A stretch of DNA of 42,053 bases from a virus. The stretch spans positions 1 to 42,053 of the IMG/VR virus record IMGVR_UViG_3300021092_000080; one strand, written 5' to 3'. Numbering within the stretch: the stretch's first letter is position 1; every line of letters begins with the position of its first letter. The notes beneath the pieces are model-generated. The model had not been told where the DNA came from. It did no database searches and saw nothing but the letters and a program-made list of their open reading frames with translations. Below, piece after piece: positions 1,721-39,992 of this stretch. The position numbers and the translations under genes are program-made.

Positions 1721-2431
1721 TCAACCAACAGTGCCGGAACCGTAAGCCAGCGTAGCTACAGTATTAATTCGACTTGGATTAGCGACGTAATAAGCCAAAA
1801 TATCCACGCCGCTTGCAGTAGTCGTAAGTGTAGGTGCCGTATTACTTTGGAAAGCCCAGGCACCGCTGTAAGTAAGAAGACGGTAGCCAGCGCTGTCCTG
1901 ACGAACAATGATCGTGCCGGTTTGGCCGCCGCTTGCGTTGGTGGGGCTAGCCAGAGTTTGAGTGCCACTAGTTAAAACGATCTCAAAGTTATTGCCAGCG
2001 CCGAAATTTAAAATGATGACACCAGAGGCACTTACAAAAGTCGGAGTTCCGATTGCCTGAGACTGTACCGTCACAGGACCAGAGATCGGACCACCGGCTT
2101 TGTCGTACTTATTAGCCAGCGAGCTGAGCGCCGCGTTGCCGGAAGCTTGAGCGGTGGCAGCACTGGAGAGCGCAGCGTTACCAGAAGCTAAGGCGGTGGC
2201 GGCGTTAACTAAAGCAGCGTTGCCCGAAGCAAGAGCTGCAGTACCAGAAGACAGGGCCTGATTAGCGGTATCCTGAGCGGCGACACCACTAGCAGCAGAT
2301 GTATAACGAACGTCTAAAACACCAACTTCAACACGCTTGTTTGACGTGCCTGAAGCTTGAATTACAGGAAAATAATCACCACTAGCTAACGTCGTGATCG
2401 CTGTAAATTGCGATATCTTTTGGCTAGCCAT
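1721..2431 (-). CDS. Tail-fibre-like structural protein with ASGNAAL repeats
   Basis: A 236-residue protein starting MASQKISQFTAITTLASGDY. Residues 45-105 hold Ala/Ser/Gly-rich repeats of the type ALASGNAAL and ALSSAATAQASGNAAL, which probably form an extended or trimeric coiled stalk. The C-terminal half is beta-rich and ends TLAYGSGTVG. The opening resembles the attachment segment of many phage fibres (KISQFTA...SGDYFPVIQ). It lies 3 bases after the next upstream gene and 12 bases before the lectin adhesin, so the genes are probably co-transcribed. Tail-fibre or spike role is inferred from composition and neighbours. Confidence 0.75.
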   Translation of the reverse strand: MASQKISQFTAITTLASGDYFPVIQASGTSNKRVEVGVLDVRYTSAASGVAAQDTANQALSSGTAALASGNAALVNAATALASGNAALSSAATAQASGNAALSSLANKYDKAGGPISGPVTVQSQAIGTPTFVSASGVIILNFGAGNNFEIVLTSGTQTLASPTNASGGQTGTIIVRQDSAGYRLLTYSGAWAFQSNTAPTLTTTASGVDILAYYVANPSRINTVATLAYGSGTVG

Positions 2432-2433
2432 TT

Positions 2434-2910
2434 TTATACAGTCTCTAGGTCAATTGTAGACCCATCTTCTTGAAGCATAGCATCGAATATGACGCTAACG
2501 CTGGATTCAAGAATAATAACTGAGGTGGGGTTAGATATAAACTTGGGTTTGGACGGTTCGACCTCCACGCCGGATGAGGTTACGGCGCGACCCAGAATTG
2601 TCAGATATGCACCGCCGTAACCAGTAAGCGCTAGATCCGTTTCCCAAGTACTGTAAGGAACTGTGGTTCCCGAGGTAAGCAGGGAGACATACCGGTACTC
2701 GCCTGGAGTTAAACCACTAGCGGCGGTATAAAGAAAGTCACCATTGACTCGAACTGAACTGCCAGCAGCGCCCGAATCAATGGCGACACCAATGGTTGCG
2801 GCTTGATCGCTAAGAATAGCAAGGGATTTATATATAAATCCCGTTGAGCTTAAGTAAACAGCATCGCCAGCCGAAATAGCTTCACCTGCTTTAAAAGAAG
2901 TAACCGCCAT
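2434..2910 (-). CDS. Small virion protein of the fibre cluster
   Basis: A 158-residue, beta-rich protein (MAVTSFKAGEAISAGDAVYLSS) followed by GVAIDSGAAGSSVRVNGDFLYTA. The pattern of AGDAVYL, then G+A, then V+VNG resembles small capsid- or fibre-decorating proteins of the DUF2190 kind, but I cannot assign a family firmly. It sits between two fibre-like genes on the same strand. A purely structural role is inferred from context. Confidence 0.7.
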   Translation of the reverse strand: MAVTSFKAGEAISAGDAVYLSSTGFIYKSLAILSDQAATIGVAIDSGAAGSSVRVNGDFLYTAASGLTPGEYRYVSLLTSGTTVPYSTWETDLALTGYGGAYLTILGRAVTSSGVEVEPSKPKFISNPTSVIILESSVSVIFDAMLQEDGSTIDLETV

Positions 2911-2934
2911 CTCGACCCTTTAGATAACTACAGT

Positions 2935-3060
2935 TTAGCGCCCTTGGCCAACTGTTTTCTTTTTACCGCGTCGGTTGGGACGCGAATTAACGCCTTGTCC
3001 AATCGAAGTCGTCTTAGGTTTGGACTCGATTTTGTTTTGTGTGTTTTTGGGCTTAGACAT
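2935..3060 (-). CDS. Small basic 41-residue protein
   Basis: ATG at 3060 and TAA at 2935-2937 define a 41-residue, strongly basic peptide that begins MSKPKNTQNKIESKPKTTS and ends NRRGKKKTVGQGR. It contains two GQG motifs (SIGQGVNSRPN and TVGQGR). It fits the gap between the 2434-2910 and 3086-3994 genes without overlapping either, which favours it over a longer ORF in another frame that runs into the 3086 gene. No function is recognised; the charge suggests nucleic acid or capsid binding. Confidence 0.55.
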   Translation of the reverse strand: MSKPKNTQNKIESKPKTTSIGQGVNSRPNRRGKKKTVGQGR

Positions 3061-3085
3061 AGTGATCCGTCAGGGCGAAGCAAGC

Positions 3086-3994
3086 TTAGATTTGATTCCA
3101 GCTCGTACCGTCCCAAACAAATAAATGTTGACTAACAGTGTCATACCAACCAGCACCCTGCGTAGAGGGAGGAGGAGAAACAGCACTATAAGCAAACGAA
3201 CGAGAGGGACCGGCTTCATACCAGCCACTGCTTGTTGCGTCGTAAACAAAGAGGTTACCAACTAAGGTATTAAACCAAAGCAAACCATCACGCTCAGGGG
3301 CGTTTAAACCAGTGCCGGAGGGCGGCAGCTCACCTTTATTGACAATGGCATCAGCGTTGGTTTGATACCACGCGGGTGAAGCAACCCCGTTACCGCTGGC
3401 ATAAACGAACAGCCGCCCCTCGTTGGTATCAAACCAAAGCGAACCATTGGTGTAATTCGCGGCAGGAGCACCAGACACAGTAACCGAAGTGCCGCCACCG
3501 CCGGTGCTCGCTGTACCGCTACCGCTAATTGTTACCGTATTGCCACTATAAGAAACAGTATTATCACCAGCACCAAAAATATGTCCAGAGACAGAATTTT
3601 GGAAAACATTGTCGTAGTTAATATTGAACTCACTTCCATTAATAAGATATAAACCGGACCCTGCTGTATAAGTAATACCAGAAGCAGAAGTTACTGTCGC
3701 ATTAATGACAGTAGCGGTCCCGCTAGCGGTGAAGTAAATACCGGAGCCCGCTTGAATATCCGACGCTCCGCCGCCACCCTGAATCCCACTTATAGTCGTG
3801 TTTAAATCTTCTAACGCTCGCACAACCCCATCAAAGTTAGGGGTATAACCAGTAGCGCACCTAGAGTAACTTGTAGTTCCCACTCCAGATACCGTATCTA
3901 AAAGGAGTTCGATGACATCGACAATGCCACGGAAGTTTGGTTCGTGTAGAGCACGATATGTACTCCCGTGTGTCGGGCAGGGAGCTAGTGTCAT
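3086..3994 (-). CDS. Tail-fibre-like protein with LW(F/Y)DT...LFVYD repeats
   Basis: 302 residues. The N-terminus has two copies of a PNFxGVVxxLEDL-like unit (PNFRGIVDVIELL and PNFDGVVRALEDL). A Gly/Ser/Thr-rich middle with repeated SGxxYTAGSG follows. The C-terminal third carries three copies of a beta unit: GSLWFDTNEGRLFVYAS, DGLLWFNTLVGNLFVYD and GAGWYDTVSQHLFVWD, each ending in a W-x-x motif. These repeats are typical of phage fibres and were probably made by internal duplication. An SD-like GGAGG lies about 20 bases upstream, too far to be ideal, so the exact start is less certain than the gene. Confidence 0.8.
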   Translation of the reverse strand: MTLAPCPTHGSTYRALHEPNFRGIVDVIELLLDTVSGVGTTSYSRCATGYTPNFDGVVRALEDLNTTISGIQGGGGASDIQAGSGIYFTASGTATVINATVTSASGITYTAGSGLYLINGSEFNINYDNVFQNSVSGHIFGAGDNTVSYSGNTVTISGSGTASTGGGGTSVTVSGAPAANYTNGSLWFDTNEGRLFVYASGNGVASPAWYQTNADAIVNKGELPPSGTGLNAPERDGLLWFNTLVGNLFVYDATSSGWYEAGPSRSFAYSAVSPPPSTQGAGWYDTVSQHLFVWDGTSWNQI

Positions 3995-7124: not shown

Positions 7125-7544
7125 ATGCCGAAAAGCAACACAGCTAACAACCTCGCCAAAAAGATCTTTAGCAAGAGCGAAGTTCAGAATCAAATCGCCG
7201 TCAACGTCGTCAAGATGATCGTGGGCGATATCGTAACGCTCTACGAAGAATTTAGAAGTGCAGAGGGTTTAGGGGCACTTTTTTTTAATCCGATTGCTCC
7301 TGAGAACAGTTCTTATATGACCATAAAAGACATTAAGAACGACATAATTCTTGCGGAGGAAATAATGGATGAAGACTTAAAAGACTTCTTAAAAAAATTA
7401 CTGAATATTGTTGATAAGGAACAAGATAACAAGCAAGCGATTGTTATCCTCATCAACAACCAAACGATGAGTATTCATCTAATCGATCTAAATTCTGTCG
7501 ACACTCAAATTAAAGAACTTGTAGATGCCCTTAGCCGCGATTGA
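7125..7544 (+). CDS. Hypothetical acidic protein of the plus-strand operon
   Basis: ATG at 7125 sits 1 base after the preceding TAA and gives 139 residues. The protein is helical, begins basic (MPKSNTANNLAKKIFSK) and becomes acidic (EEIMDEDLKDFLKKLLNIVD), then ends with a beta pair (AIVILINNQTMSIHLIDL). No family is recognised. It overlaps the start of the Dam-like gene by 20 bases, consistent with coupled translation. Confidence 0.65.
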   Translation: MPKSNTANNLAKKIFSKSEVQNQIAVNVVKMIVGDIVTLYEEFRSAEGLGALFFNPIAPENSSYMTIKDIKNDIILAEEIMDEDLKDFLKKLLNIVDKEQDNKQAIVILINNQTMSIHLIDLNSVDTQIKELVDALSRD

Positions 7545-8103
7545 TTTTGTATCTCCGCCGGAAGTTGTTGGCGTAACGACTTCATTTTTTAATGGGTCTA
7601 TTGATTTAGACCCAGCGTCGAGTGAAGACGCAAATACTTTAATTAACGCCAATCGATTTTTCACGCACGAACACAACGGTTTAGTCCAGGATTGGCGCGG
7701 TAAGAACGTTTATCTTTATCCACCACGCGATGTTTTGCTTTCGGGGGAACAACCAAAAGAGGTTTTGTTGTTTAACCGTCGCCGAAGATTTCAAAAGTCA
7801 GCTCAGCGAGTGTGGCTCGAAGAGTGTCTTAGACGTTATCGAAAAGCTGAATTTGACGAAGCAATCATTTTTTTAACTTCTTCGCAAGTTGCGTTATTAG
7901 TTACGCAGAAGTTAAATATTGATCTGCCTATGTGCGTACTGAAGCATCACCCTAATTTGCACTTAGATAGTCCTGGATTACCAAAACTAGAGAGCACTCG
8001 ATGCCTTGGTTTTGTTTTATATTTACCTTCTCCTTTTAATACAGAAGAAAGGATTATGGAATTCGCTAGGTTATATAGTCAGCTGGGCCGTGTATATTGC
8101 TGA
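7525..8103 (+). CDS. Dam-like (phage DNA N6-adenine methyltransferase family) protein with altered catalytic motif
   Basis: 192 residues. Residues 24-62 match the phage DNA N6-adenine methyltransferase family (PF05869-type): SIDLDPASSEDANTLINANR, then FFT and NGLVQDWRGKNVYL. In active members the next residues are N/D-PPY, the catalytic motif IV. Here they are YPPR (65-68), so both the Asn/Asp and the aromatic residue are replaced. The rest of the Rossmann pattern (FDEAIIFLTSSQ and TRCLGFVLYLPSP) is kept. The family is clear, but methyltransferase activity is doubtful; a DNA-binding or regulatory remnant is possible. Last gene of the plus-strand operon, converging on the 8066 gene with 38 bases of overlap. 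Confidence 0.7.
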   Translation: MPLAAIDFVSPPEVVGVTTSFFNGSIDLDPASSEDANTLINANRFFTHEHNGLVQDWRGKNVYLYPPRDVLLSGEQPKEVLLFNRRRRFQKSAQRVWLEECLRRYRKAEFDEAIIFLTSSQVALLVTQKLNIDLPMCVLKHHPNLHLDSPGLPKLESTRCLGFVLYLPSPFNTEERIMEFARLYSQLGRVYC

Positions 8104-8911: not shown

Positions 8912-10261
8912 TTAAAACACTGGTTGTCCTTTAGCCAGTCTATCGCGAATTTGATAGCCTATCTTCAAAACTTCAGGACTGGTCTTGTTCTCACCTGGAT
9001 TATAGAAATCAGCGGAAACGTGAGCTCCAGTAGTAGAACCACTGCGACCTTGTGTACCGATAAATGTTCCGGGATCAATAACGGCGCCAGGTTTTAGACC
9101 GGGATTAAGTTTATCGAAATGAGCCAGACGCACATCGAATGCTCGTCCCGTCTGCGGGTCGACGCCACGGAGATCGACGTAATTCCCGTAGCCTCTACGG
9201 CCTGGACCTTTTTCTAAATTAGTTTCCCAAGGATCGTTAACTACCTTTAAAACTTGGGCTTTAAATGGGAGGTTGAATGCCGCCCCACGACCGCCGGGAA
9301 TCACAAAGTCAAATCCTGGCTCACCAGAAGTATCAACGGCAGAGGTGATTTGAACCCCCGGAATTGTTGTTCCTCCAGAAGGAGTCAGTGCCCCGGTGGA
9401 CATAGGCTGAGCACCTATGGATTTATTTAGCTGACTTTCTAAAGCTTCAGCTTGTTGGTTGAAAACTTTTTCGGTTAATTTTGCCTGCAGAATTTGTGTT
9501 GCTAAGGCTGTTGGATCAGCGTTCGGCGTTACAGATTCCATCGAAGCCGATAAGGCTTCAGCTCGATACTTTTCAGCTAAGTCAGTAATACCCTGTTCAT
9601 CTAAAGCATTAGCTAGCTCTAAGTATTTAGTTGCTTGATCCCCCGTCGATGCGGGCTGTTCTGTTTTGGTAGCAAACTCACTAACAATATTTTTAAGCGC
9701 TCCTTTGAAATCAAATCGAGGTATAGAAACCGGACTTACAGAAGAAGTTTCGGTTGTACTCTGATCCTGAACTACGGGACTGGGTACGCGCCCGTAAACC
9801 TCCTGAATCGAACTTAAGGATTTGACGGGCTGACCATAATAGCTTTTACCCGATTCAGTCGGGAAAGATGCCCACGCGGGGGATAAAGCGGCGGCAACTC
9901 GTGGACTTAACCCCTCTTGCTTTAAAGCAGCGAGACCGCCAATCTTCATCAGCTTGTCCCGAGCCAAAGCCAAGGCGGCAATATCCTGCTCTTTGGGTCC
10001 GAAAGAGCCCAGTCCTAATCGAGACGCATAAGAACCCCAGGTATAAGGCATGAACTGATATGCACCTGCCGCTGCGCTCTTATATCCCCCGCTAGAAATA
10101 ACAGTATCGGGGTGCTTACTCAGATCGCTAAAAGTGCCGCCACCAAACATAGTTTGGTAACCTTTAGGTCCTGCAGTCCCTTCAGCAAAACGAATCGCCT
10201 GTAATAACCGCTGCCCCTCAGGAGTCTGGCGAAACTGTTCCAGTAATTGCCGCTCATTCAT
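8912..10261 (-). CDS. Lysin: GH104-like muramidase plus degenerate M23-like domain
   Basis: 449 residues. Residues 15-150 match lambda-R-type muramidases (GH104): AIRFAEGTAGPKGY with E27 as the likely catalytic acid, FGGGTFSDLSKHP, GAGxYQF-like AAAGAYQFMPYTW and FGPKEQDIAALAL. Residues 150-310 are a linker with helical segments. Residues 312-420 resemble an M23 (LytM) peptidase fold: GFDFVIPGG, NYVDLRG, RLAHFDKL (H381) and TGAHVSADF. The M23 zinc ligands are only partly kept: HxGxD is E314-P-G-F-D318, and HxH is H414-V-S416. The first domain should cut peptidoglycan glycan strands; the second probably binds rather than cuts. The protein could be an endolysin or a virion-associated wall-degrading enzyme. 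Confidence 0.8.
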   Translation of the reverse strand: MNERQLLEQFRQTPEGQRLLQAIRFAEGTAGPKGYQTMFGGGTFSDLSKHPDTVISSGGYKSAAAGAYQFMPYTWGSYASRLGLGSFGPKEQDIAALALARDKLMKIGGLAALKQEGLSPRVAAALSPAWASFPTESGKSYYGQPVKSLSSIQEVYGRVPSPVVQDQSTTETSSVSPVSIPRFDFKGALKNIVSEFATKTEQPASTGDQATKYLELANALDEQGITDLAEKYRAEALSASMESVTPNADPTALATQILQAKLTEKVFNQQAEALESQLNKSIGAQPMSTGALTPSGGTTIPGVQITSAVDTSGEPGFDFVIPGGRGAAFNLPFKAQVLKVVNDPWETNLEKGPGRRGYGNYVDLRGVDPQTGRAFDVRLAHFDKLNPGLKPGAVIDPGTFIGTQGRSGSTTGAHVSADFYNPGENKTSPEVLKIGYQIRDRLAKGQPVF

Positions 10262-10323: not shown

Positions 10324-10575
10324 TTATTCCTCTGCGTCAAGCTCATCATCAAATAAACTCATGTTGGTATCCATAGCAATACCAACCTCACTCATTACAG
10401 TTTTATAAGCCCGTTCGCGACAAATTAACTTAAATACCGTGGCCCACAGAAACTGATCGCGGTCTTTGTCCTTCAGTGAGTGAGCCGTGGTGCGGATACG
10501 GGTCAGAACAAATTCATCTTCGAGAGTAAGCCCGCAATCAAGGCTTTGAGACTCATTTGACTTACGGGAAGCCAT
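10324..10575 (-). CDS. NblA-like small protein (candidate phycobilisome-degradation adaptor)
   Basis: 83 residues. Residues 16-66 align without gaps to the cyanobacterial NblA/Ycf18 pattern: LTLEDEFVLTRIR corresponds to the LSxEQxFxLxxxR start of NblA, a two-helix spacing follows, then DQFLWATVFKLICRERAYK corresponds to the xFLxxLYxxMxxRExxY part. NblA is a small helical adaptor that delivers phycobilisome proteins to the Clp protease; some cyanophages carry it. Identity is low and the first 15 residues are extra, so this is a candidate. It has its own putative promoter about 55 bases upstream, with TATAAC and TGN. If real, it would act on host light harvesting. Confidence 0.5.
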   Translation of the reverse strand: MASRKSNESQSLDCGLTLEDEFVLTRIRTTAHSLKDKDRDQFLWATVFKLICRERAYKTVMSEVGIAMDTNMSLFDDELDAEE

Positions 10576-10628
10576 CGCGGTGAGCCGACTAATTAAAGTC
10601 TAGCTCTACTCACAAAAAAGCTCTTAAA

Positions 10629-10639
10629 GTTATAGCACA
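10629..10639 (-). promoter_or_regulatory. Putative extended -10 promoter (TGTGCTATAAC) of the NblA-like gene
   Basis: On the minus strand the sequence reads TGTGCTATAACT, an extended -10 box (TGC followed by TATAAC). The identical 12-mer recurs upstream of the 17205 gene. No strong -35 is seen. It would give a leader of about 50 bases before the ATG at 10575. It lies just inside the intergenic gap, which supports a regulatory rather than coding role. Confidence 0.5.
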
Positions 10640-10660: not shown

Positions 10661-10909
10661 TCACCAGTTTTTGCAGCTCCAATAGCCTGGAGTTAACTTA
10701 CTCTTTTTCTCGTCACAGCTATGCCTAGATCTAAACGCAGCGCGTCGTTTAGGATCATCGCTACGATTTTCCATATTCGGATCACCAAAGCGAACTAAAC
10801 GAACAGTATCGCCTTCTTTAGCCGCCACGGAGTATTCCTTACCGCTCTGAACGTCACGCTTGGGCTGGTTATACCTTTTGAAAACTTCTCCTGCGATACG
10901 AATTGTCAT
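10661..10909 (-). CDS. Conserved phage-type small basic protein
   Basis: 82 residues starting MTIRIAGEVFKRYNQPKRD. Residues 30-47 (KEGDTVRLVRFGDPNMEN) form a small beta unit. The C-terminus carries RRAAFRSRHSCDEKK followed by LTPGYWSCKNW. This RHxC...YWSCxxW ending with an IAGExxxxxNxPKR start is a pattern I know from small uncharacterised proteins of phages and large DNA viruses. Function unknown. Divergent from the HTH/Dps cassette at 11037. Confidence 0.65.
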   Translation of the reverse strand: MTIRIAGEVFKRYNQPKRDVQSGKEYSVAAKEGDTVRLVRFGDPNMENRSDDPKRRAAFRSRHSCDEKKSKLTPGYWSCKNW

Positions 10910-11036: not shown

Positions 11037-11306
11037 ATGTCGGACGGTAAAGCACTTCTTACCATCGCTGAAACCGCTGAACTTCTTAACTGCAGCTCCG
11101 GCTTTGTGCGTAAGCGCATCGCGCTGTCTGAAGCTAATCAGCCTGGCGGGTGGCCCAAATCTGTGTACGTGAACCTGCAACCTAACGGTGCAAAATCTCT
11201 GTACCGGGTAAACAAAACTGCGCTCGAAGAGTATCTCCAAAGTTCCCCTACCGCTAAAGTGGAGGCAGAAGAAACTCCGATGGCGGCTGTTGCCTGCACT
11301 TTCTGA
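11037..11306 (+). CDS. HTH protein of the Dps cassette (excisionase/AlpA-like)
   Basis: 89 residues. Residues 7-32 form an HTH of the MerR/excisionase type (LTIAETAELLNCSSGFVRKR), followed by the wing YVNLQPNGAKSLYRVNKTAL and a helix ending EEYLQSS. Upstream, TAATAT at 11002-11007 could serve as a -10 box. The gene is immediately followed by dps (1-base gap), so the two are a two-gene transcription unit and this protein may regulate it. Both genes lie on the plus strand inside a minus-strand region. Confidence 0.7.
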   Translation: MSDGKALLTIAETAELLNCSSGFVRKRIALSEANQPGGWPKSVYVNLQPNGAKSLYRVNKTALEEYLQSSPTAKVEAEETPMAAVACTF

Positions 11307-11307
11307 T

Positions 11308-11841
11308 ATGACGTTCTCCGGCTCTTTTGAGGCAGCTCCCACCCCTATGCCGGGTGAGGCAATCGTCATTATCGAAGAGCAGGAATTGAAGCCTGTGGCC
11401 ACGGCTGACGAGCTTATTAGTCAACTTGTGGCCCTCGCCTCTTATACCAATCAGCTGTATTTACAGGCTCACCTCATTCATCTGAATGTGGAGGGGCCTA
11501 TTTTTCTGCCGATCCACGAGTTCCTTAAAGAGCAGTACGATGCGCATATTGCGCAGTTCGATGCGCTGAGCGAGTTTGTTCGCTCAATGGATTATTTAAT
11601 GCCTATGTGCGCAAAAGGTCTTCAAGGCGCCTACAAAAACTTTAAGCACATTAAATCATACGAAGCCCGCGAGATGCTGACGGTGTACGTCAAAAATCTC
11701 GAAGCTGCTGGTTTCATGGCTAAAGATGTCGGTATGACTGCTAAGGAAGTGCAAGCACCCGACATCGAAAATTACCTGGCGGAACTTGTGGGGATGATGT
11801 TCAAAGCTGCCTGGTTCCTCAAAGCGACTCTGCGCGATTAA
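11308..11841 (+). CDS. dps: Dps-family ferritin-like DNA-protection protein with intact ferroxidase signature
   Basis: 177 residues from ATG at 11308, chosen over a TTG 18 bases earlier because it lies 1 base after the upstream stop. Dps proteins form dodecamers that oxidise and store iron and protect DNA from peroxide. The Dps signature is clear: HLNVEGPIFLPIH (H58 and H70, 12 apart), then D85 and E89 at +15 and +19, exactly the spacing of the ferroxidase centre residues of E. coli Dps (H51, H63, D78, E82). The last helix (GMMFKAAWFLKATL) also fits. The N-terminal 40 residues are longer than usual and acidic. Convergent with the 11838 gene, sharing TTAA. Confidence 0.8.
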   Translation: MTFSGSFEAAPTPMPGEAIVIIEEQELKPVATADELISQLVALASYTNQLYLQAHLIHLNVEGPIFLPIHEFLKEQYDAHIAQFDALSEFVRSMDYLMPMCAKGLQGAYKNFKHIKSYEAREMLTVYVKNLEAAGFMAKDVGMTAKEVQAPDIENYLAELVGMMFKAAWFLKATLRD

Positions 11842-12494
11842 ATTGCAGTCCAGGTATTAGAGAACTGAATATATAGACCCGCCGCGTAAACACCGGAGGT
11901 TTGTATTTGGTAAAACAAAGCTCCAGAACCATAACTGCTCGGACTAGGTAATCCGCTTAGTCCTATATCGGCACTTTTAACTGTGCCCGAGGCCAAGATC
12001 GCCCCTGACGCCAAAGTGGCTGTATTAGCTGTGATTGCTCCCGAGGCCAAGATCGCCCCTGACGCCAAAGTGGCTGTATTAGCTGTGATTGCTCCCGAAG
12101 CCAAGACAGCGCCGGAAGCTAATACTGCTACGTTTGCAATACCAGCAACGGAAGCTGAGTCTGCCGTGGTTGACGAATCAGAAAAAGACGCTCCGATCTT
12201 TTGCCACGCTGAGCCTGTCCAAACTTTTAAATAGTAAGCAGACGTAGAGCTGTCGGACCACAGTTCACCAACTGAGTTACCCGCTACTCCAACGGGAGTT
12301 GAGTTAGGCGCCGTGGCCCCATAATGCGAGGGACCGATCTTCCTGATAGCACCAGCTGAGTCTTCGAAATAAAGCCCTGGATCGGCGGCACCCACTGCCA
12401 TAGCCAGTTCACCGTTCTGAATAACAGTTCCGCTAGGGCGATCAGACGATTGACCGGAACGCTTTAAAAGAAGAACAACAGGTGTTGAAGTCAT
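11838..12494 (-). CDS. Tail-fibre-like structural protein with 18-residue repeats
   Basis: 218 residues. The N-terminus reads MTSTPVVLLLKRSGQSSDRP, then SGTVIQNGELAMAVGAADPG and LYFEDSAGAIRKIGP, a common N-terminal segment of phage fibres. A central block has tandem repeats of LASGAITANTATLASGAI, 18 residues each. The unit VGELWSDSST...YLKVWTGSAWQKIG matches the W-rich repeats of the 3086 gene product. Fibre or capsid-fibre role inferred. Confidence 0.75.
   Translation of the reverse strand: MTSTPVVLLLKRSGQSSDRPSGTVIQNGELAMAVGAADPGLYFEDSAGAIRKIGPSHYGATAPNSTPVGVAGNSVGELWSDSSTSAYYLKVWTGSAWQKIGASFSDSSTTADSASVAGIANVAVLASGAVLASGAITANTATLASGAILASGAITANTATLASGAILASGTVKSADIGLSGLPSPSSYGSGALFYQIQTSGVYAAGLYIQFSNTWTAI
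11986..12100. repeat. Tandem 54-base direct repeats inside the fibre-like gene
   Basis: Two identical 54-base units (starting at 11986 and 12040, both CCCGAGGCCAAGATCGCC) are followed by the diverged start of a third at 12094. The period of 54 bases is 18 codons, so the repeats keep the reading frame of the minus-strand gene. The perfect identity suggests a recent duplication, and copy number may vary between isolates. Confidence 0.85.
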
Positions 12495-17204: not shown

Positions 17205-17642
17205 TCACTCAACGTAAACGTGATCGCCCTCTAAAACAGAATCCCAATCCACACGGGAAATCGAGCGAAGCTGATCAAGTTTAGTAAACCGCTCTCCCGG
17301 CATTGATTGCTGCAGTTCTTTGATCTCAGTAGCGGTCTTTAAACCAACTCCCTTGAGCACTTGCGTCAAAAGTTGCGGGGTGGCCGAATTAATGTTGACT
17401 CGGTTAAAAGCTTGGACCTCAGGTTTTACGATCTGTCGCCCACGACGCTGCTTAGCTGGTTTTTCAGTAGGTTCAGGAGCGTCTACAAGATCCTCAGAGA
17501 TTTGATTTTTATGTGCGAAAAATACTTTCCCCGTGGTTAGGGAGCGAACCATTTTATATTCACCGTCATCGTGCTCACTTAGAATTTCAATCTTTACGCC
17601 ATTAGGAGTAAAGGTGAACTCTTTAACAGACACGGCAGTCAT
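17205..17642 (-). CDS. Helix-hairpin-helix (ComEA-like) protein in the capsid region
   Basis: 145 residues. The N-terminal 50 residues form a small beta unit (FTPNGVKIEILSEHDDGEYK, then TTGKVFFAHKNQI). A Lys/Arg-rich linker (KPAKQRRGRQIVKP) follows. Residues 82-132 are a ComEA-type helix-hairpin-helix: VNINSATPQLLTQVLKGVG with GLKTATEIKEL, then ERFTKLDQLRSISRVDW. HhH units bind DNA non-specifically. The gene has its own putative promoter, 12 bases downstream of the terminator of the 17736 gene. It may be a DNA-binding virion or packaging factor; that is inference. Confidence 0.75.
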   Translation of the reverse strand: MTAVSVKEFTFTPNGVKIEILSEHDDGEYKMVRSLTTGKVFFAHKNQISEDLVDAPEPTEKPAKQRRGRQIVKPEVQAFNRVNINSATPQLLTQVLKGVGLKTATEIKELQQSMPGERFTKLDQLRSISRVDWDSVLEGDHVYVE

Positions 17643-17735: not shown

Positions 17736-18599
17736 TCAGGAGGGCACAGTCGAGGTGTACACGTTGGATTCCACCACGCCGCCGGGCTGCAGAGCCAGAT
17801 CGTCGCGCTTGGGCGCTTCGTCGGGGATGAGCCAGCAGACTTCGCAGATACCCAGAGCCTTGTTCTTGCCAGACAGTTTGTTGGCTTGAGCACGGGGATC
17901 GTACACACCGGAACCGAGACCCAGGCCGGAGCCAGGAACAGTAGCGGTGCTGTACAGACGGTACTTCACATCGCGAGTAACGGCGTGCATGCTGGCATCA
18001 CTCCAGGCGTTGCTGGAAATGTAGCTACCGTTCTCGATGCGGCTGTTCGAACCAACGAGGTTGGCGAAGAAGCCACTGGGGCTAGGCGCGGTGGTGAGAC
18101 CGGAGGACAGAGCAGGACCCACGCCGAGGGCGGGGGCGCTCTGAGCACCAGCAATACCGCTGCTGATCACGTCGCCGCCGTCGAGACGCACGGACACGCG
18201 ATACACGTATGCACCGGAAGGCACGGTAATGCCGTCGGTGATGTCAGCACGGACATCCTTAGACGCGTCAGGAGACGGAATAATAATGTCAGCAGCCCGG
18301 AAAGGCTGGTTCGCGCTGTTCTGACCCGAACCATAAGGCTGGGTGTAATAATCCAGCTGGTTGGTGCTAGAGCTGGCCTGATAAGACAGGTCAACGTAAC
18401 CCACGGCTTGCTGAGCAATCCAACCGGGGCGGAAGACCACGCCCACCGGGCCGCCAATCGGCTGGTTGGTATAGGTCTCGCTGGTGCCGTTCTCATTCAG
18501 GAAACTGAAGTTGCTGGTGGAGTGCCAGTAACGGAGAACGTTGGTGTAGTTGCCAGGATAAATCTTGGCGACTGCGATCTGATCGGGATTAATTGCCAT
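17736..18599 (-). CDS. Capsid-associated major structural protein (decoration-like)
   Basis: 287 residues, neutral, beta-rich, with Ser, Gly and Thr residues abundant, starting MAINPDQIAVAKIYPGNYTN. It follows the major capsid gene directly and its SD (AGGAGG) overlaps the capsid stop codon. The strong SD and terminator suggest very high expression. It ends YTSTVPS. Codon use is GC-rich and even compared with the flanking genes, as is the capsid gene. A decoration or second head protein is most likely, but I have no family match. Confidence 0.75.
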   Translation of the reverse strand: MAINPDQIAVAKIYPGNYTNVLRYWHSTSNFSFLNENGTSETYTNQPIGGPVGVVFRPGWIAQQAVGYVDLSYQASSSTNQLDYYTQPYGSGQNSANQPFRAADIIIPSPDASKDVRADITDGITVPSGAYVYRVSVRLDGGDVISSGIAGAQSAPALGVGPALSSGLTTAPSPSGFFANLVGSNSRIENGSYISSNAWSDASMHAVTRDVKYRLYSTATVPGSGLGLGSGVYDPRAQANKLSGKNKALGICEVCWLIPDEAPKRDDLALQPGGVVESNVYTSTVPS

Positions 18600-24092: not shown

Positions 24093-24266
24093 TCAAGCTT
24101 CGGCGCCTTTCTCTTCAGCTTTACGCTTCATTTTGGCTTTCTGAGCCTTCCGAAGCGCTTCTTTGCGCTTCATTTTGGAGTGCTCTTCCGATTTCTCACC
24201 GTGCTCGCCGCCTTTTTCCTTCGATTCAAAGTGCTTCCGGAGCGCTTCGGGCATTTTCTCAGCCAT
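24093..24266 (-). CDS. Small Lys/Glu-rich protein
   Basis: ATG at 24266 (MAEKMPEALRKHFESKEKGG) is preferred to a start 60 bases upstream, which would lie inside the glycosyltransferase gene. 57 residues, very charged, with KRKEALRKAQKAKMKRK near the end. MPEALRKHFE-type starts are common in small phage proteins of unknown function. Overlaps the end of the GT17-like gene by 8 bases. Confidence 0.6.
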   Translation of the reverse strand: MAEKMPEALRKHFESKEKGGEHGEKSEEHSKMKRKEALRKAQKAKMKRKAEEKGAEA

Positions 24267-25101
24267 TTGGTAAAAGATACTGGCGGACTCTCTCAAGTTT
24301 AAACAATTCTGACGGCAAAAGCTCATGCGGATAAGCTTCTAGGATGTGATCGCAGCGCCCCAGAGGGTCTGTACCGCCAGCTTTTGCTTTGTAGTTGTCT
24401 AAATGCGACAACATTTCGTCACTGTTAGCCGGAGCCACGGAGTTCGGGATGTCGTCGAAGCAATGGGAGAAGGAAGTGACTTTGCGCTTCATCCGATCCG
24501 CATCGCCCATCCAAGAAAAATGCCAACCAGCGTCGCAATCGCCCACAACGAGATCGTTGGGGTTCATCCGAATTTGAGAAGGAGTCTGCTCTAGATGCTC
24601 ATAGAGCACAACGGTGCCGCAGGTCCAGTTATTGGGAGCCTTGGAGTTATCGCCATGAGGATCTTTCACACGCAGATCAGCGCGCCCGTAAAACATCGGC
24701 ATTGACAGACGAACGCAGCGCGACGCGTCGGCTTTAGCGATTTCCACAGCCTCAAGGAGTTTCTCCGGCTTGGGAATTTCGTCTACGTCGCTGAAGAAAA
24801 ATACAGAGTCCGGGGGACACATCCGCATACCGACTCCAAGTGCGTCCCGTTGGGCGTATTCCCGAGACCAGGGAATAGAGCATTCTTCAGGCGTGGGCAG
24901 CTCGACGTGCAGTACCTGAAGCTTTTCCTCAGGCAATCCGAGTTCACGGATGGTGTCTACGCAAGTAAACGGTTTAGGGTCTCCACGGAACGTGCGGTTC
25001 CCATCGGTGATAATGAAACCGTCAACGACATCTTTAAGAATGTTGTAACGGAGCTCTAAGAGCTCCTTTTCGTCAAAATATAAAAAGCAATCAAACAGCA
25101 T
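24259..25101 (-). CDS. GT17-like glycosyltransferase
   Basis: 280 residues. The start MLFDCFLYFDEKELLELRYN and VVDGFIITDGNRTFRGDPKP match GT17 (beta-1,4-N-acetylglucosaminyltransferase-like) proteins, as do IPWSREYAQRDALGVGM and FFFSDVDEIPKPEKL (DVD at residues 105-107, the likely metal-binding motif). It lies between the portal and small virion genes, so it could modify a capsid protein or host surface sugar. The upstream region contains a TTAGCATACT motif also found before the other glycosyltransferase gene at 35386. Confidence 0.8.
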   Translation of the reverse strand: MLFDCFLYFDEKELLELRYNILKDVVDGFIITDGNRTFRGDPKPFTCVDTIRELGLPEEKLQVLHVELPTPEECSIPWSREYAQRDALGVGMRMCPPDSVFFFSDVDEIPKPEKLLEAVEIAKADASRCVRLSMPMFYGRADLRVKDPHGDNSKAPNNWTCGTVVLYEHLEQTPSQIRMNPNDLVVGDCDAGWHFSWMGDADRMKRKVTSFSHCFDDIPNSVAPANSDEMLSHLDNYKAKAGGTDPLGRCDHILEAYPHELLPSELFKLERVRQYLLPNG

Positions 25102-26111: not shown

Positions 26112-26396
26112 TTAGTACAGTACGTAGCAGTGATCAATAGTCGAGGTGCCACTAATTTGAGTAATCGATATTGGCAACAAAACGTCCGTACGGATGTGGT
26201 TAAATGTAATAGGCGATTTAGAGTCCGCCAATAACACAACTAAAGTTTTGTCCGTGTTCTTGTTTGCATTCTCAACATAAACTGCACGACAAGCAGCAAA
26301 GTTGACGTTAGCTCCCGATGCGTTTACAAGGAAACCACTGGTATAAGGCAGCGAAGCTGTCTGCCCGTAAACACCCCCAAACGCTCTAACGTCCAT
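26112..26396 (-). CDS. Small beta-rich virion-type protein
   Basis: 94 residues starting MDVRAFGGVYGQTASLPYTS and ending TSTIDHCYVLY. Beta-rich with a SGFLVNASGANVNFAACRAV stretch. It resembles small capsid-associated proteins in composition. Close spacing with both neighbours (2 bases on each side) places it in the same transcription unit. Confidence 0.6.
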   Translation of the reverse strand: MDVRAFGGVYGQTASLPYTSGFLVNASGANVNFAACRAVYVENANKNTDKTLVVLLADSKSPITFNHIRTDVLLPISITQISGTSTIDHCYVLY

Positions 26397-26765: not shown

Positions 26766-27638
26766 CTACAAAATAAGCATCTCCTCTATACATAGTAAAT
26801 CTTTTTCGCGTTCTTTAAACTGTCTTGAGTATTTGTCATCGTCATGACAAATCAACCCACACTCTAGAATGCAATAACTGTCTTTACGTTTTACAACAGG
26901 CACACAACGTCTGTGCTCAAAGTTTATCGGTAAATATTCAAACGCTAATCCCATCGAACTACGGTCCGCAATTGGCCAATTTCTAATGCCCGTTTTGGCG
27001 TAACTTTTTTGAGGATCAAAGCTATCGGAGCGAATATATAGTTCTCCGTCTTGCTGATCTAAGATCATCCCGCAGTAATAAGGACTGCCTAATTGAATAA
27101 AGAAATCAATCTCATGATCAACAACAAGAATTTTTGGAACCGTGAATCCAATATTGTGCCAGACATTAGGAGTTTCTTTGGTTAAAAGCCATTTTTCATA
27201 GTTACCAATCGGGATTCGTTTCCCTTCAAAATTTTCATAAAGGGCAAACCCAGGCTCTAACCCATATCGGTTTAATACTGGTTTCCATTTTCTGTAATAG
27301 TCAAAATTATCTTTCCGAATTAAAACGTCATTTTCTTGATAAATGTAATAGTCCGCCGCGCGGTTCAAAATCGCTAAAGCTAAATCAGTTTTGTGTGCCC
27401 AGGTCAGATACCAACCCTCATACTCTGGACCGGCAACTTTAACCTCGACAGTAATATTTTTAAATTGCTCAAACAGCGTATCTAATGTCTCAATATTATC
27501 CTGAGCTTCATAATTTATATAAATATGTATATGAACGTCCTGTTTAAATTTATCGTACTCTGTTAAAACATTTAAAAGCGGGTTAATCCGCTCCAACGGA
27601 TTGTGAGCCGTAATCGCAACCCAGATTTTCTTAGTCAT
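26766..27638 (-). CDS. Glycosyltransferase-like protein (GT-A fold)
   Basis: ATG at 27638 lies 1 base after the terminase stop (a TTG 12 bases earlier is possible). The 290-residue product starts MTKKIWVAITAHNPLERINP and has a likely nucleotide-sugar fold: VHIHIYINYEAQDNIETLD, then AILNRAADYYIYQENDVLI, where END is a DXD-like metal motif. The C-terminal part is Cys-containing (YCILECGLICHDDDKY). The fold is inferred; sugar and acceptor are unknown. It is one of four glycosyltransferase-like genes in the window. Confidence 0.65.
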   Translation of the reverse strand: MTKKIWVAITAHNPLERINPLLNVLTEYDKFKQDVHIHIYINYEAQDNIETLDTLFEQFKNITVEVKVAGPEYEGWYLTWAHKTDLALAILNRAADYYIYQENDVLIRKDNFDYYRKWKPVLNRYGLEPGFALYENFEGKRIPIGNYEKWLLTKETPNVWHNIGFTVPKILVVDHEIDFFIQLGSPYYCGMILDQQDGELYIRSDSFDPQKSYAKTGIRNWPIADRSSMGLAFEYLPINFEHRRCVPVVKRKDSYCILECGLICHDDDKYSRQFKEREKDLLCIEEMLIL

Positions 27639-27639
27639 G

Positions 27640-29160
27640 TCAGTATTCAATGCTGAAGTTGCCTCGACGCTGTAAATACTGGATCAACCACGTGTAGGCG
27701 TCTAGCAGGTCGTCATGAGCTGTTGCGCCGACGTTGATCAACTGATCGAACAAAGCGTCGAATTTTCGGTATTTATTGAACACAATTTTCTTGTTTTCTA
27801 GCAAACCTAAAGTTCCGCGAAAACGAGCGATCTTGTCCCCTCTAAAACCTTTAACTTCATGAATATTTAAGTTACCTAAGCCGCGCTCATTTATCAGCAC
27901 TCGTCGAAGATCTGCCGCGAGAGATGCTTGATACGCCACGGATTCCACAACCAGCGTCACCGTGGAATAAGTCGGCATAAACTGATTGTCGTGCTGAGTG
28001 AGGATACCCCACTCCAAGAGCATGTCGCAGAGTAAATCAATTTTCTCCAGGTTTCCGATTGAGCGGCATTGGTGAGCGTCAATGATGTAGTATTTATCGC
28101 CTAAACGACCACCAAGAACAAAAGCTGTGTAATCGCTCGTTTCGTTTTTGCTAGCCGAAAGGTCAATACCGACTGCAAGTGAATCAAACTCGGTAACAAC
28201 TTCCCCTTTAACTAATAGATCTGGTGAAACAACCAGATCGGAAGTCATCACAGGTTGTTGCTGATACTGGAACGCAAACGCCACGGGGTCCAGTTCTTTC
28301 TGGGTTAATAAATACTGCGACGACCACTGCTCCGGCCAATAGCTCACGGGTCCTCCATTGTTGTCGTATGTAATAGCCTCTTGGGTCACCTGTTTCCACC
28401 CTTTCTCAGGCACAAACATTGTCTTGTGGATGTCTAACGGGTGGAATCGAGTTCCTAGGCAGATTGATCGGCCACCTTCAAACACAATCGGCGCAATAAC
28501 AGAAGACCAGTTGGTATTCATCTCGTCTCGAATCGCTGGGTTTTTAATATCTGCGCTGGATTTAATAGGGTCATCAACGACAACTAAGTGTGCGCGCTTA
28601 GACGTAATAGAACCACGCAGGCCCGCAGCACGCAGCGTAAACTCTTCGTCGCCAAGCCTGGGAATACCGGCGTAATCAAAATCAATCGACCAGCCGATGT
28701 CCGATTGCATCCCGGACTTCAACTGCACCCGGGGAAAAACTTTTCTAAATTCTGGAGAATCAATGAGCTGACGGATGATTCGGCTCTTAGGAATGGCCGT
28801 GGCGATGTTGTACGAAACATAAATAATCTGTAACGGCATCTTCGCCGTCGTGTGTTTTCCAATAATCCACGCGGTAAACATGTTGAGGCAGGTGCTCTTG
28901 GCGCTACCCCGTGGAGCCAAAATGTCTAAATTTGGTCCAGCAATATCAAGTAGATACTTATTGGACTCACCAGTGATCAGGTGCCGATGCCATTCCAGCA
29001 TGTGTTTTGCCGGAGGTTTATCGAGAAGCGTACAGAACGTATGAAAGTCATCTGCTGCTTTTTTGTATATCGTGTCGACGCCAGATCCAGTGTCCTCACT
29101 AGCACGTAGTGCACGCATTTGTGCTGCACGACGATACGCGGATGTTTCCCGGCTAGGCAT
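27640..29160 (-). CDS. terL: Terminase large subunit
   Basis: 506 residues. ATPase domain: Walker A APRGSAKST (82-90) and Walker B LVVVDD (192-197), with the coupling-type motif CLGTRF at 234-239. Nuclease domain (RNase H fold): D333 in AVGIDLSASK, E406 in LVVESVA and D483/D484 in AHDDLLDAYTW. It packages DNA into the prohead with the portal. The gene is at the upstream end of the minus-strand morphogenesis block, head-to-head with the plus-strand glycan genes at 29214. Both active sites look intact. Confidence 0.9.
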   Translation of the reverse strand: MPSRETSAYRRAAQMRALRASEDTGSGVDTIYKKAADDFHTFCTLLDKPPAKHMLEWHRHLITGESNKYLLDIAGPNLDILAPRGSAKSTCLNMFTAWIIGKHTTAKMPLQIIYVSYNIATAIPKSRIIRQLIDSPEFRKVFPRVQLKSGMQSDIGWSIDFDYAGIPRLGDEEFTLRAAGLRGSITSKRAHLVVVDDPIKSSADIKNPAIRDEMNTNWSSVIAPIVFEGGRSICLGTRFHPLDIHKTMFVPEKGWKQVTQEAITYDNNGGPVSYWPEQWSSQYLLTQKELDPVAFAFQYQQQPVMTSDLVVSPDLLVKGEVVTEFDSLAVGIDLSASKNETSDYTAFVLGGRLGDKYYIIDAHQCRSIGNLEKIDLLCDMLLEWGILTQHDNQFMPTYSTVTLVVESVAYQASLAADLRRVLINERGLGNLNIHEVKGFRGDKIARFRGTLGLLENKKIVFNKYRKFDALFDQLINVGATAHDDLLDAYTWLIQYLQRRGNFSIEY

Positions 29161-29213: not shown

Positions 29214-30386
29214 ATGGCCAAAATTCTTTGGTACGGTGATGCTTGCTGTAATACAGGGTTTGCCCGAGTAACACACAGTGTATTAGAGCAGCTGCAAAAA
29301 GAGCACGAGATCTATGTGCTCGCAATCAATTATTCTGGCGATCCTCATAACTACCCCTATACCGTTTACCCCGCGTCGAACGTCAACTGCGGAGACCGGT
29401 TTGGTATTCCACGGATTCCGGAAATTTTAGAAAAAGTAAAACCAGATATTTTTATCTGCCTACAAGATATTTGGGTTTGCAATCAGGTATGGGAGCGCTG
29501 CCAATTCCTTAAAGATTCCTTGAAATTTAAATTTATCTGCTATTTCCCTATCGACAGCGAGTCCTACATGCCGGACATGCTGCGCAATATCCCTGAGTGG
29601 GACATGGCCATCACGTTTACCATTGAGTGCGCTCAGCGAATTTTAAAACACGATATTAAACCTTCTCGTTTAGGTGTTCTTCCCCACGGGGTGGACATCG
29701 ACAAATTTATGCCCGGCTCTCGATCAGAAGCACGTAAAGCTTTTGGGTTGCCCGAAGATAAATTTATCGTTCTTAACGCCAATAGAAATCAGCCTCGTAA
29801 GCGCATTGATCTAACGATTAAAGCGTTCGCAAAATTTGCGGTCAATAAACCCGACACCATGCTGTACCTCCACATGGGGGCCAAGGATATGGGATGGGAC
29901 GTTATTCCGCTCTTTAAATACGAAATGCAAAAGCTGGGACTTGACGGAACCAACCGTCTGATCCTGACTTCGAACCAAATAAATTACTTAGACGCGCCGT
30001 CAGATGCCATGCTTAACCAGATTTACAACTGTTGTGACGTAGGTATAAATACAGCAGATGGTGAAGGCTGGGGTCTTGTTCCCTTCGAACACGCAAGCTG
30101 CAAAAAACCTCAGGTCGTACCCAACCACACGGCGTGTAGTGATATTTGGGAAGGCGCTGCTCAGCTTGTGGACATCGCTACGTGGTACGTCGATAAAGAT
30201 CTCGGCGTGGAGCGCGGCCTAATTGACGTAAACGATGCTGTTAAGAAATTAGACGAGCTCTATTACGACAAAAATATTTACGACGAAGTAGCCGAAGCAT
30301 GTTACACCGTAACCCGCCGTCCGGAATACCGCTGGCAAAGCGTAGCCGCTGGATTCTCTCACGCTATTAAAGACCTCACCGCTTGA
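29214..30386 (+). CDS. GT4-like glycosyltransferase
   Basis: 390 residues, GT-B fold. The start MAKILWYGDACCNTGFARVT has the GT4-type nucleotide-free loop pattern (GxxxxxTGFARV). LPHGVDIDKFMPGSRSEARK and NANRNQPRKRIDLTIKAF are typical, and the EX7E motif is present as E284 and E292 (GEGWGLVPFEHASCKKP). It forms a two-gene unit with the GH130-like gene, 3 bases apart. Sugar donor not determinable. Its strand is opposite to the terminase and virion genes around it. Confidence 0.85.
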   Translation: MAKILWYGDACCNTGFARVTHSVLEQLQKEHEIYVLAINYSGDPHNYPYTVYPASNVNCGDRFGIPRIPEILEKVKPDIFICLQDIWVCNQVWERCQFLKDSLKFKFICYFPIDSESYMPDMLRNIPEWDMAITFTIECAQRILKHDIKPSRLGVLPHGVDIDKFMPGSRSEARKAFGLPEDKFIVLNANRNQPRKRIDLTIKAFAKFAVNKPDTMLYLHMGAKDMGWDVIPLFKYEMQKLGLDGTNRLILTSNQINYLDAPSDAMLNQIYNCCDVGINTADGEGWGLVPFEHASCKKPQVVPNHTACSDIWEGAAQLVDIATWYVDKDLGVERGLIDVNDAVKKLDELYYDKNIYDEVAEACYTVTRRPEYRWQSVAAGFSHAIKDLTA

Positions 30387-35385: not shown

Positions 35386-36153
35386 TTAAAACCCAAGATT
35401 TTTACTACGAACAAAGTGCAGATCATAAGTGGTGAAATCAATAGGAAGCGTTGGGTTATTAAAAGGAGTTTCATAAACCTCGCCCTCAACGTGAGCCTGC
35501 CACGCAGGGTTCCACTTAGCGTGCAGATATTGTTTATTCATCTCATGGGCGTAATGGATGCCAGCCGCTAGCTCAGGCTCACTCCTCCAAGTCTGAGACC
35601 CGTCCTTATAATCGCCTGCGGTTTCACCGTGGTAATAGGGAACCCCTACAGACATATGACGTTTTAGTTCCTGGTGCTTAAACCGCATCCCGTAGTCCAT
35701 ATCCTCGCAATAAGCCGGGTACAGATTCTCATCGAATAACCCGAATTTCTGCACAACCCAATCTTTTAAAAGGAAGAAATCCCAGCTTCCGTTCTCTCCG
35801 TGGACGATACCTGTTTCCGCATCTCGGGCGTGATCCACAGCTTTAGCCAAGAAGCCCGGCGTAAACATAAGGTCGTGGTTTGTGATGATCCAATAAGGCG
35901 CAGTCATGAACGACTTGATAATCAAGTTCCACGCACCCGAACATCCGATGTTGGAAGGCATGTGCGTGACAACCACGCGCTTTACATATTTATGCGGGAT
36001 TTTTGTAAGTAGATCAAGCTCCTCGGTTATTTGGTTACGACCATTGTTATTAAAGACAATAAACGTATCTACAGGGTAATCGATGCTGTAGAACAGCCGA
36101 TAGACCCAATGAGGCGCGTTAACAACAGCAGTGCCAATAACCGGTATCGTCAT
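35386..36153 (-). CDS. GT2-like glycosyltransferase
   Basis: ATG at 36153 is preceded by AGGCGGAA (SD-like) and is preferred to ATG 30 bases further up. 255 residues. MTIPVIGTAVVNAPHWVYRL, then TFIVFNNNGRNQITEELDLL, PYWIITNHDLMFTPGFLAKA and DENLYPAYCEDMDYGMRFKH are typical GT2 segments: HDLMF has the DXD-like position and YCEDMDYGMR matches the ED catalytic-base motif. The upstream TTAGCATACT element is shared with the GT17-like gene. It is head-to-head with the FkbM methyltransferase. Acceptor unknown. Confidence 0.8.
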   Translation of the reverse strand: MTIPVIGTAVVNAPHWVYRLFYSIDYPVDTFIVFNNNGRNQITEELDLLTKIPHKYVKRVVVTHMPSNIGCSGAWNLIIKSFMTAPYWIITNHDLMFTPGFLAKAVDHARDAETGIVHGENGSWDFFLLKDWVVQKFGLFDENLYPAYCEDMDYGMRFKHQELKRHMSVGVPYYHGETAGDYKDGSQTWRSEPELAAGIHYAHEMNKQYLHAKWNPAWQAHVEGEVYETPFNNPTLPIDFTTYDLHFVRSKNLGF

Positions 36154-36198
36154 TTCCGCCTGTGGCTGGTAGTATGCTAACACTAAATCCTAGCGCTA

Positions 36199-36918
36199 AT
36201 GGCGACTTACTTCTGGGGCCCGGAGAAACGGCTTATTGTTCCCACACCTGACCTGGCTTTTCTGATGCACGATGACGACTCGGGTCGTTGTCAGATGCAC
36301 CAAGTTGGTGTGCCCGAACTCACCATCATCCAGTGGGCCGCCCAGCAATTCGGCAATAAAGATAAAACCTTCATCGACTGTGGCGCACACATGGGCGCCT
36401 ACTCCATATTGCTTTCAGAGCACTTCAACACAGTTCATGCTTTTGAAGCTCAGACGCGCACGTACTACCAGCTCTGCGGCAATATCTTTATTAATGAAAA
36501 ACAAAACATCGTTCCTCACCACGAGGCTGTCACAAACATTACCGAGGCCAACCAAACCGTAACCCTGCACGTGGTTTCAGAAGATGGCGGCGGTTCCACA
36601 ATTCGTGTTCCGCAAAAAAACCAAAACGTTCTGGGCCACGAGAAAGTACGAACTGCAACTATCGACCACTACCACTTCAACCATGTGGGGTTGATCAAAC
36701 TCGATATCGAAGGCAACGAGCTCAAAGCTTTACACGGCGCACAATATACGTTGCAACGCAATCATTACCCCCCGATCATCTTCGAAGCCAACAACGATGC
36801 GTGGTTCGAATCCGAAAAGAAAGACCTCTTCGACCACTTAAAATCTTTAAATTATCAGATCGCCGAAATCCGCCCCTTCGACAACATGTACGTGGCGATC
36901 AACAATCCGAATCAATAA
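36199..36918 (+). CDS. FkbM-family methyltransferase
   Basis: 239 residues. Residues 56-70 (KTFIDCGAHMGAYSILLSEH) are the SAM-binding motif I, followed by FNTVHAFEAQTRTYYQLCGN and NIVPHHEAV; residues 162-178 hold VGLIKLDIEGNELKALHGA and YPPIIFEANND, the FkbM signature. FkbM enzymes O-methylate sugar hydroxyls or small molecules, so this may act with the adjacent GT2-like enzyme, which is divergently transcribed. Its last 20 bases overlap the dCMP deaminase gene on the other strand. Confidence 0.85.
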   Translation: MATYFWGPEKRLIVPTPDLAFLMHDDDSGRCQMHQVGVPELTIIQWAAQQFGNKDKTFIDCGAHMGAYSILLSEHFNTVHAFEAQTRTYYQLCGNIFINEKQNIVPHHEAVTNITEANQTVTLHVVSEDGGGSTIRVPQKNQNVLGHEKVRTATIDHYHFNHVGLIKLDIEGNELKALHGAQYTLQRNHYPPIIFEANNDAWFESEKKDLFDHLKSLNYQIAEIRPFDNMYVAINNPNQ

Positions 36919-39903: not shown

Positions 39904-39920
39904 GTTCAAAAAATGAACAT
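39902..39920 (-). promoter_or_regulatory. Perfect hairpin covering the start codon after tRNA-Leu
   Basis: The sequence ATGTTCA, five A residues, TGAACAT is a perfect 7-bp inverted repeat with a 5-base loop. One arm starts at the tRNA discriminator base and the other includes the first two bases of the ATG at 39903. In the transcript it would hide the start codon. It might also guide tRNA 3' processing. Confidence 0.5.
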
Positions 39921-39992
39921 ACCCGAGGTGGGATTTGAACCCACGCTGGGACGATTTTAAGTCGTCTGCCTCTTCCGCTGGGCTACTCGGGC
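39920..39992 (-). tRNA. tRNA-Leu(UAA) with short variable loop
   Basis: 73 bases, minus strand. Acceptor GCCCGAG pairs with CTCGGGT, discriminator A. The anticodon stem GACGA/TCGTC encloses the loop CTTAAAA, so the anticodon is UAA (Leu, codon UUA). T arm GTGGG-TTCAAAT-CCCAC is standard. The variable loop is only CCAGC (5 bases), while bacterial tRNA-Leu normally has a long variable arm. No CCA is encoded. The D arm has GG and the expected A14. Confidence 0.85.

Follow-up and report, generated by a model that had tools for sequence, protein, structure and literature searches.

What the small minus-strand gene A of the virus record IMGVR_UViG_3300021092_000080 encodes, and whether its product could act on the light-harvesting antenna of the host, is the question raised by the 42 kb of DNA analysed here, the whole stretch of 42,053 nucleotides being referred to as the window. 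The product of A (translation of 10324-10575, minus strand) is MASRKSNESQSLDCGLTLEDEFVLTRIRTTAHSLKDKDRDQFLWATVFKLICRERAYKTVMSEVGIAMDTNMSLFDDELDAEE. A preliminary description of the window had quoted two segments of this protein, both of which are present in the minus-strand reading frame, and had compared them with NblA, a small helix-loop-helix adaptor that as a dimer connects phycobiliproteins to ClpC (PMC7966870; PMC7760959). Phage NblAs, though strongly diverged, make cyanobacteria that express them lose phycobilins (PMC9602691).

The portal protein, major capsid protein and TerL of the virus record clearly correspond to proteins of Synechococcus phage S-EIV1 (48% identity for TerL), and the cyanophage lineage that carries A is, as judged from such sequence comparisons, related to this phage. 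A near-identical relative is the 75 kb IMG/VR contig G002/L001, with which the window shares 98.4% identity across 17.7 kb. As psbA was not found, the host assignment gets no support from this gene, and a cyanobacterial host is proposed solely from the kinship with S-EIV1.

Table 1. Coordinates of the features discussed, given for the window unless another record is named
Feature	Position	Strand	Evidence and remarks
NblA-like gene A	10324..10575	-	83 aa, ATG start, stop included; ORF, IMG/VR relatives, pN far below pS
A residues 16-61, PF04485 (NblA) match	10393..10530	-	Gapless to profile positions 2-47 of 50
A C-terminal extension, residues 65-83	10327..10383	-	G-[IV]-x-[VM]-D-T-N...FDDE, acidic, not in NblA; alignments
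Lysozyme/endolysin-like gene, downstream of A	8912..10261	-	PHROG 90 endolysin, 2.7e-27; beside A in 73/82 loci
Gene upstream of A, phrog_7595, no assigned function	10661..10909	-	Its S-EIV1 homologue identifies the equivalent slot there
Excisionase-like HTH gene, opposite-strand neighbour	11037..11306	+	82/82 loci
Dps/ferritin-like gene, opposite-strand neighbour	11308..11841	+	82/82 loci; search anchor
TGTGCTATAAC, promoter proposed in the preliminary description	10629..10639	-	Present, not conserved in relatives
Octamer GCTAGACT upstream of A, -29	10597..10604	-	Conserved in relatives
tRNA gene	39920-39992	-	Rfam RF00005, 57.7 bits
NblA-like ORF AHV82245.1 with long acidic tail	L065 43903-44223 = S-EIV1 73902-74222		Not annotated as NblA
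Gene B, related records	L223-L238; L250 10001-10234; G002 18103-18348 (-), L242		PF04485 scan

Remote resemblance of A to NblA

The sole Pfam match of A is PF04485, the NblA family (E = 0.013, 16.4 bits, without gaps), a score that falls short of the curated cut-off of 25 bits, and NblA is likewise matched by 23 of 36 and 43 of 64 members of the A family, far ahead of other families and with a best E value of 0.0005. An independent profile built from 30 diverse cyanobacterial NblAs, when run against the 15,354 ORFs of 82 phage loci, retrieved nothing but ORFs of the A family at E < 0.01. The profile–profile comparison that the preliminary description had proposed as a check yielded an NblA hit, the A family aligning with the 30 cyanobacterial NblAs at an hhalign probability of 88.7 over 51 gapless columns in a single register. 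In the corresponding controls, 200 column shuffles scored at most 16.7 against 33.5 for the A family. When 101 further ORF families from these phages were compared, the best reached 13.7, with 34.2 for A; other helical families of these phages, including Dps, showed no resemblance to NblA. With both the shuffles and the other families left so far behind, a chance likeness of A to NblA is unlikely. The gap-free fit to NblA claimed at the outset is thus real and well above chance (46 columns in Pfam, 51 in hhalign), and the proposal of a longer, diverged NblA-like branch is borne out by several profile methods and their controls, at the level of remote homology.

Against the PDB, a deeper A profile found NblA (1ojh) as its top match, weakly (E = 0.12) and in the same register; PDB profile matches of A to Hsp104 and rhodanese were rejected as chance. 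PHROGs and NCBIfam contained no match for A, and the A profile did not recover NblA from 291 cyanobacterial genomes, the five fragments retrieved being chance-like and four of them containing internal stops. A is, by its profile relationships, a highly diverged NblA-like protein and a remote homologue of the family, from which in all likelihood it descends.

The low Pfam score has parallels among other viral NblAs. The freshwater cyanophages Ma-LMM01 and PaV-LD also encode a small NblA-type protein, which differs from A in that the EQ motif is kept (LEQQ in Ma-LMM01) and in that PF04485 scores of 52 and 45 bits, respectively, are reached; the nblA gene of Ma-LMM01 moreover adjoins nrdA, unlike A. 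S-CBP1, on the other hand, gives a partial PF04485 match only, and S-SCSM1 and S-TIM5, for both of which predicted NblAs have been published, yield no match to this family at all, so that scores below the threshold are normal for viral NblAs and the cut-off should not decide on function. The NblAs predicted for marine cyanopodoviruses and cyanomyoviruses (Nadel et al., 2019, 2025; S-SCSM1, S-TIM5) resemble A as distant homologues seen only by sensitive profile methods (PMC9602691), but they belong to other lineages, and no match between their sequences and A was found.

Compared with NblA/Ycf18 proteins such as Anabaena NblA (PDB 1ojh), A shares the gapless stretch of 46-51 residues, a helix hairpin predicted with modest confidence, the L-[ST]-L-E-x-x-F at the start of helix 1, whose L16, E19 and F22 fall on the L, E and F that NblA keeps without or almost without variation, and an R-E-x-x-Y in helix 2 that compares with Nostoc NblA. 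Besides the sub-threshold Pfam score, A differs in its length of 83 aa versus approximately 55-65 residues, the matching core being preceded by an N-terminal extension that varies and followed by an acidic C-terminal segment that is conserved. The invariant Q of the NblA motif L..E-Q.F at the start of helix 1 is replaced by D in 64 of 64 A proteins; conversely, A alone has W44, R39-D40, R55-A56, V60 and G65 as invariant residues. Since A lies below the Pfam cut-off and lacks the invariant Q, it is named NblA-like and not assigned to PF04485.

The AlphaFold2 monomer of A (models were built with 36 and 64 sequences) contains helices at residues 21-33 and 37-64 and a short terminal one, at a modest mean pLDDT of 66. 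The two-helix hairpin foreseen in the preliminary description is therefore predicted, with modest confidence; NblA is not among the chains listed by Foldseek and VIA-align 2 for this small and uncertain model.

Conservation and gene neighbourhood of A

Over 100 loci in IMG/VR contain relatives of A. In 50,697 phage records, tblastn with A and with one divergent member of its family found no relative, and none was detected in 84,980 prokaryote species. Comparison of the window with close relatives gives a pS of 0.7-0.9 versus a pN of 0.03-0.15 and thus indicates strong purifying selection on A. A is short and unannotated, as would be expected of a chance reading frame or a pseudogene, but the frame is uninterrupted in over 100 diverged loci and its pN is far below its pS, which refutes this explanation, the probability of which is negligible.

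A sits in the late virion/lysis module. In the A-containing loci examined, all of which had been found via A itself, the HTH–Dps pair flanks A on one side in 82 of 82 and a lysozyme-like gene follows on the other side in 73 of 82; the search was therefore repeated with Dps as the anchor. A was then present in 55 of 80 loci, and of the 25 loci without A, 23 lack any of the checked neighbour genes and two end with the contig before the place of A, which leaves A kept in 55 of 55 Dps-anchored syntenic loci where the contig reaches its place. By this Dps-anchored result, together with the constant neighbours across the A-containing loci, A is a core gene of the S-EIV1-related lineage and not a passing auxiliary gene. 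The HTH gene is followed by the Dps gene (11037-11841, +) in each of the 82 related loci, both being encoded on the other strand than the late genes.

In S-EIV1 itself, the hypothetical protein AHV82245.1 of 106 aa has an NblA match as marginal as that of A (E = 0.014) and is encoded directly after the lysozyme, between homologues of the window genes 10661-10909 and 7525-8103, that is, in the slot syntenic to that of A. The two genes have in common this slot beside the lysozyme and the marginal score, but AHV82245.1 is distinguished by its greater length, its long acidic tail and the swapped order relative to the lysozyme, and no direct alignment was obtained between the two proteins. In a tblastn search of phage records AHV82245.1 found S-EIV1 only, upon which an assignment to a known cyanomyovirus family was dropped. 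A cyanophage genome survey, in which the S-EIV1 group accounts for about 3% of the marine cyanophage signal, lists hli and ptoX and no nblA for this group (PMC5332604).

Interspersed with the virion genes of the window are genes at 24259-25101, 26766-27650, 29214-30386, 35386-36183 and 36199-36918 that, from a reading of their sequences, are glycosyltransferase-like in several cases and FkbM-like methyltransferase in one.

A second NblA-like gene and the probable role of A

A PF04485 scan of the related records uncovered a second NblA-like gene, B, which typically lies 23-34 kb from A, circular order allowed, and an example of which encodes LTLEQQFTHRAFLDGMDKLSRKEAREVLEVVYANYLIRAKLLENIIKYC. 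B exceeds the 25-bit cut-off in five records, with up to 35.8 bits, and stays below it in the others; the B family compares with NblA at an hhalign probability of 96.7, and E, Q and F of the EQxF motif are invariant in 15 of 15 aligned sequences. Both A and B are present in 12 of 14 related records of at least 65 kb. In G002, which is nearly identical to the window, B is located by alignment approximately 15 kb beyond the window start, the absence of B from the window being due to the partial nature of the window record. In L250 (record G323), B lies in an apparent replication module: genes that from a reading of their sequences are helicase-primase-like, nuclease-like and single-strand-binding-like are found nearby, all on the other strand than B.

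B resembles A in being NblA-like and in residing in the same genomes, but differs in its association with the replication module, in the retained EQxF motif with the higher Pfam scores and in ending with a conserved GVxLPxxxELL segment. Compared by hhalign, A and B align poorly (probability 6.7), which suggests either old duplicates or separate acquisitions.

Directly established are the remote homology of A, its conservation, its gene position and the two genes per genome. During infection, A probably functions as a proteolysis (Clp) adaptor directed at the phycobilisome: the hairpin would dimerise, the dimer would bind phycobiliproteins and hand them to the host ClpC–ClpP protease, and the dismantling of the antenna would entail less light stress and more amino acids for virus production. 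Since most of these phages carry B as well, A may be a later-acting copy, as its location in the virion/lysis module would suggest, with B placed in the replication module, or A and B may alternatively form a heterodimer. Synechocystis reportedly needs an NblA1/NblA2 heterodimer (Baier et al. 2014, as cited in PMC7966870). A staged two-component NblA system, in which a canonical-like B is complemented by a remodelled late A, either within a heterodimer or by retargeting of Clp to a non-phycobilisome substrate, can be envisaged tentatively and is somewhat unlikely.

The main rival to a phycobilisome-directed adaptor is a protein that arose from NblA and would retain the adaptor fold and its contact with ClpC but has taken up a new job, by bringing another protein of the host or the phage to the protease or by serving as a partner or antagonist of B, for example as a subunit that works in the heterodimer only or as an anti-adaptor. 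The presence in each genome of two NblA-like genes that differ in their conserved residues, the invariant ED in place of EQ, the conserved W44, R39-D40 and R55-A56, the conserved acidic C-terminal extension and the place of A in the virion/lysis module would all be in line with such a change; nothing found points directly to another target, though, and other strongly diverged phage NblAs have been reported to cause phycobilin loss (PMC9602691). A new job is considered unlikely. Less likely still is that A is not an NblA homologue at all, but a small helical protein of the lysis/virion module with an amphipathic hairpin convergent with NblA. Its constant location in the late module, the sub-threshold Pfam score, the missing reciprocal hit in cyanobacterial genomes and the fold searches that did not list NblA are compatible with convergence. 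However, Dps and the other helical families that these phages encode are unlike NblA, the A family is the only one among 15,354 ORFs matched by the NblA profile, an independent NblA-like ORF occupies the equivalent slot in S-EIV1 and the genomes with A also carry B as a further NblA-like gene, which together render convergence quite improbable. An adaptor that feeds phycobiliproteins to the Clp protease thus is the preferred explanation for A.

Viral NblA is known, including from Nadel et al. 2025 (Nature, doi 10.1038/s41586-025-09656-x), and is a current topic; a 2026 review cites Nadel et al. (PMC12892361). A, B or the S-EIV1 ORF may already be listed among the viral NblAs. Within the literature covered, a core and strongly remodelled NblA-like family in the S-EIV1-related lineage that is paired with a second NblA-like gene appears to be new. 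In this lineage an NblA-like gene is core and not sporadic, most of the larger genomes carry two, and ordinary annotation overlooks both A and its S-EIV1 counterpart. Should phycobilisomes be the target of A, viral antenna destruction would be more widespread than counts of recognised nblA genes suggest, an idea that is testable, as S-EIV1 is an isolate.

Sequence elements upstream of A

The preliminary description had further attributed to A a promoter of its own at TGTGCTATAAC, the TATAAC of which is located at -59. While the sequence is present, its reading as a promoter did not hold: L003, the nearest relative that is distinct (protein 93% identical), no longer has it, nor do the other relatives, a consensus promoter scan of the upstream region of A did not report it, and a sigma-70 promoter at this site was rejected for its lack of conservation. 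The octamer GCTAGACT or a close variant, on the other hand, starts between -28 and -30 in almost every one of 24 A relatives and fits the TANNNT form of a -10 element, and is possibly a -10-type element or another control site. Similar octamers precede other genes of the window, GCTAAACT at -29 of 2434-2910 (-) and GTTAAACT at -29 of 26112-26396 (-), and the G[CT]TA[GA]ACT octamer, located exactly at -29 of several start codons, may be a promoter element of the phage that leaves only a very short leader.

Joint control of A with Dps, which had also been suggested, is unsupported, since Dps and the HTH gene are transcribed from the other strand and a further gene usually separates them from A; nothing was found that links Dps/HTH control to A.

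The 12-mer TGTGCTATAACT at 10628-10639 (-), which is unconserved in the relatives of A, recurs just upstream of the gene 17205-17642 (-). Virion-type proteins rich in ASG repeats are encoded at 1721-3994 and 11838-12494 (-), and within 11838-12494 the DNA repeats directly every 54 bp.
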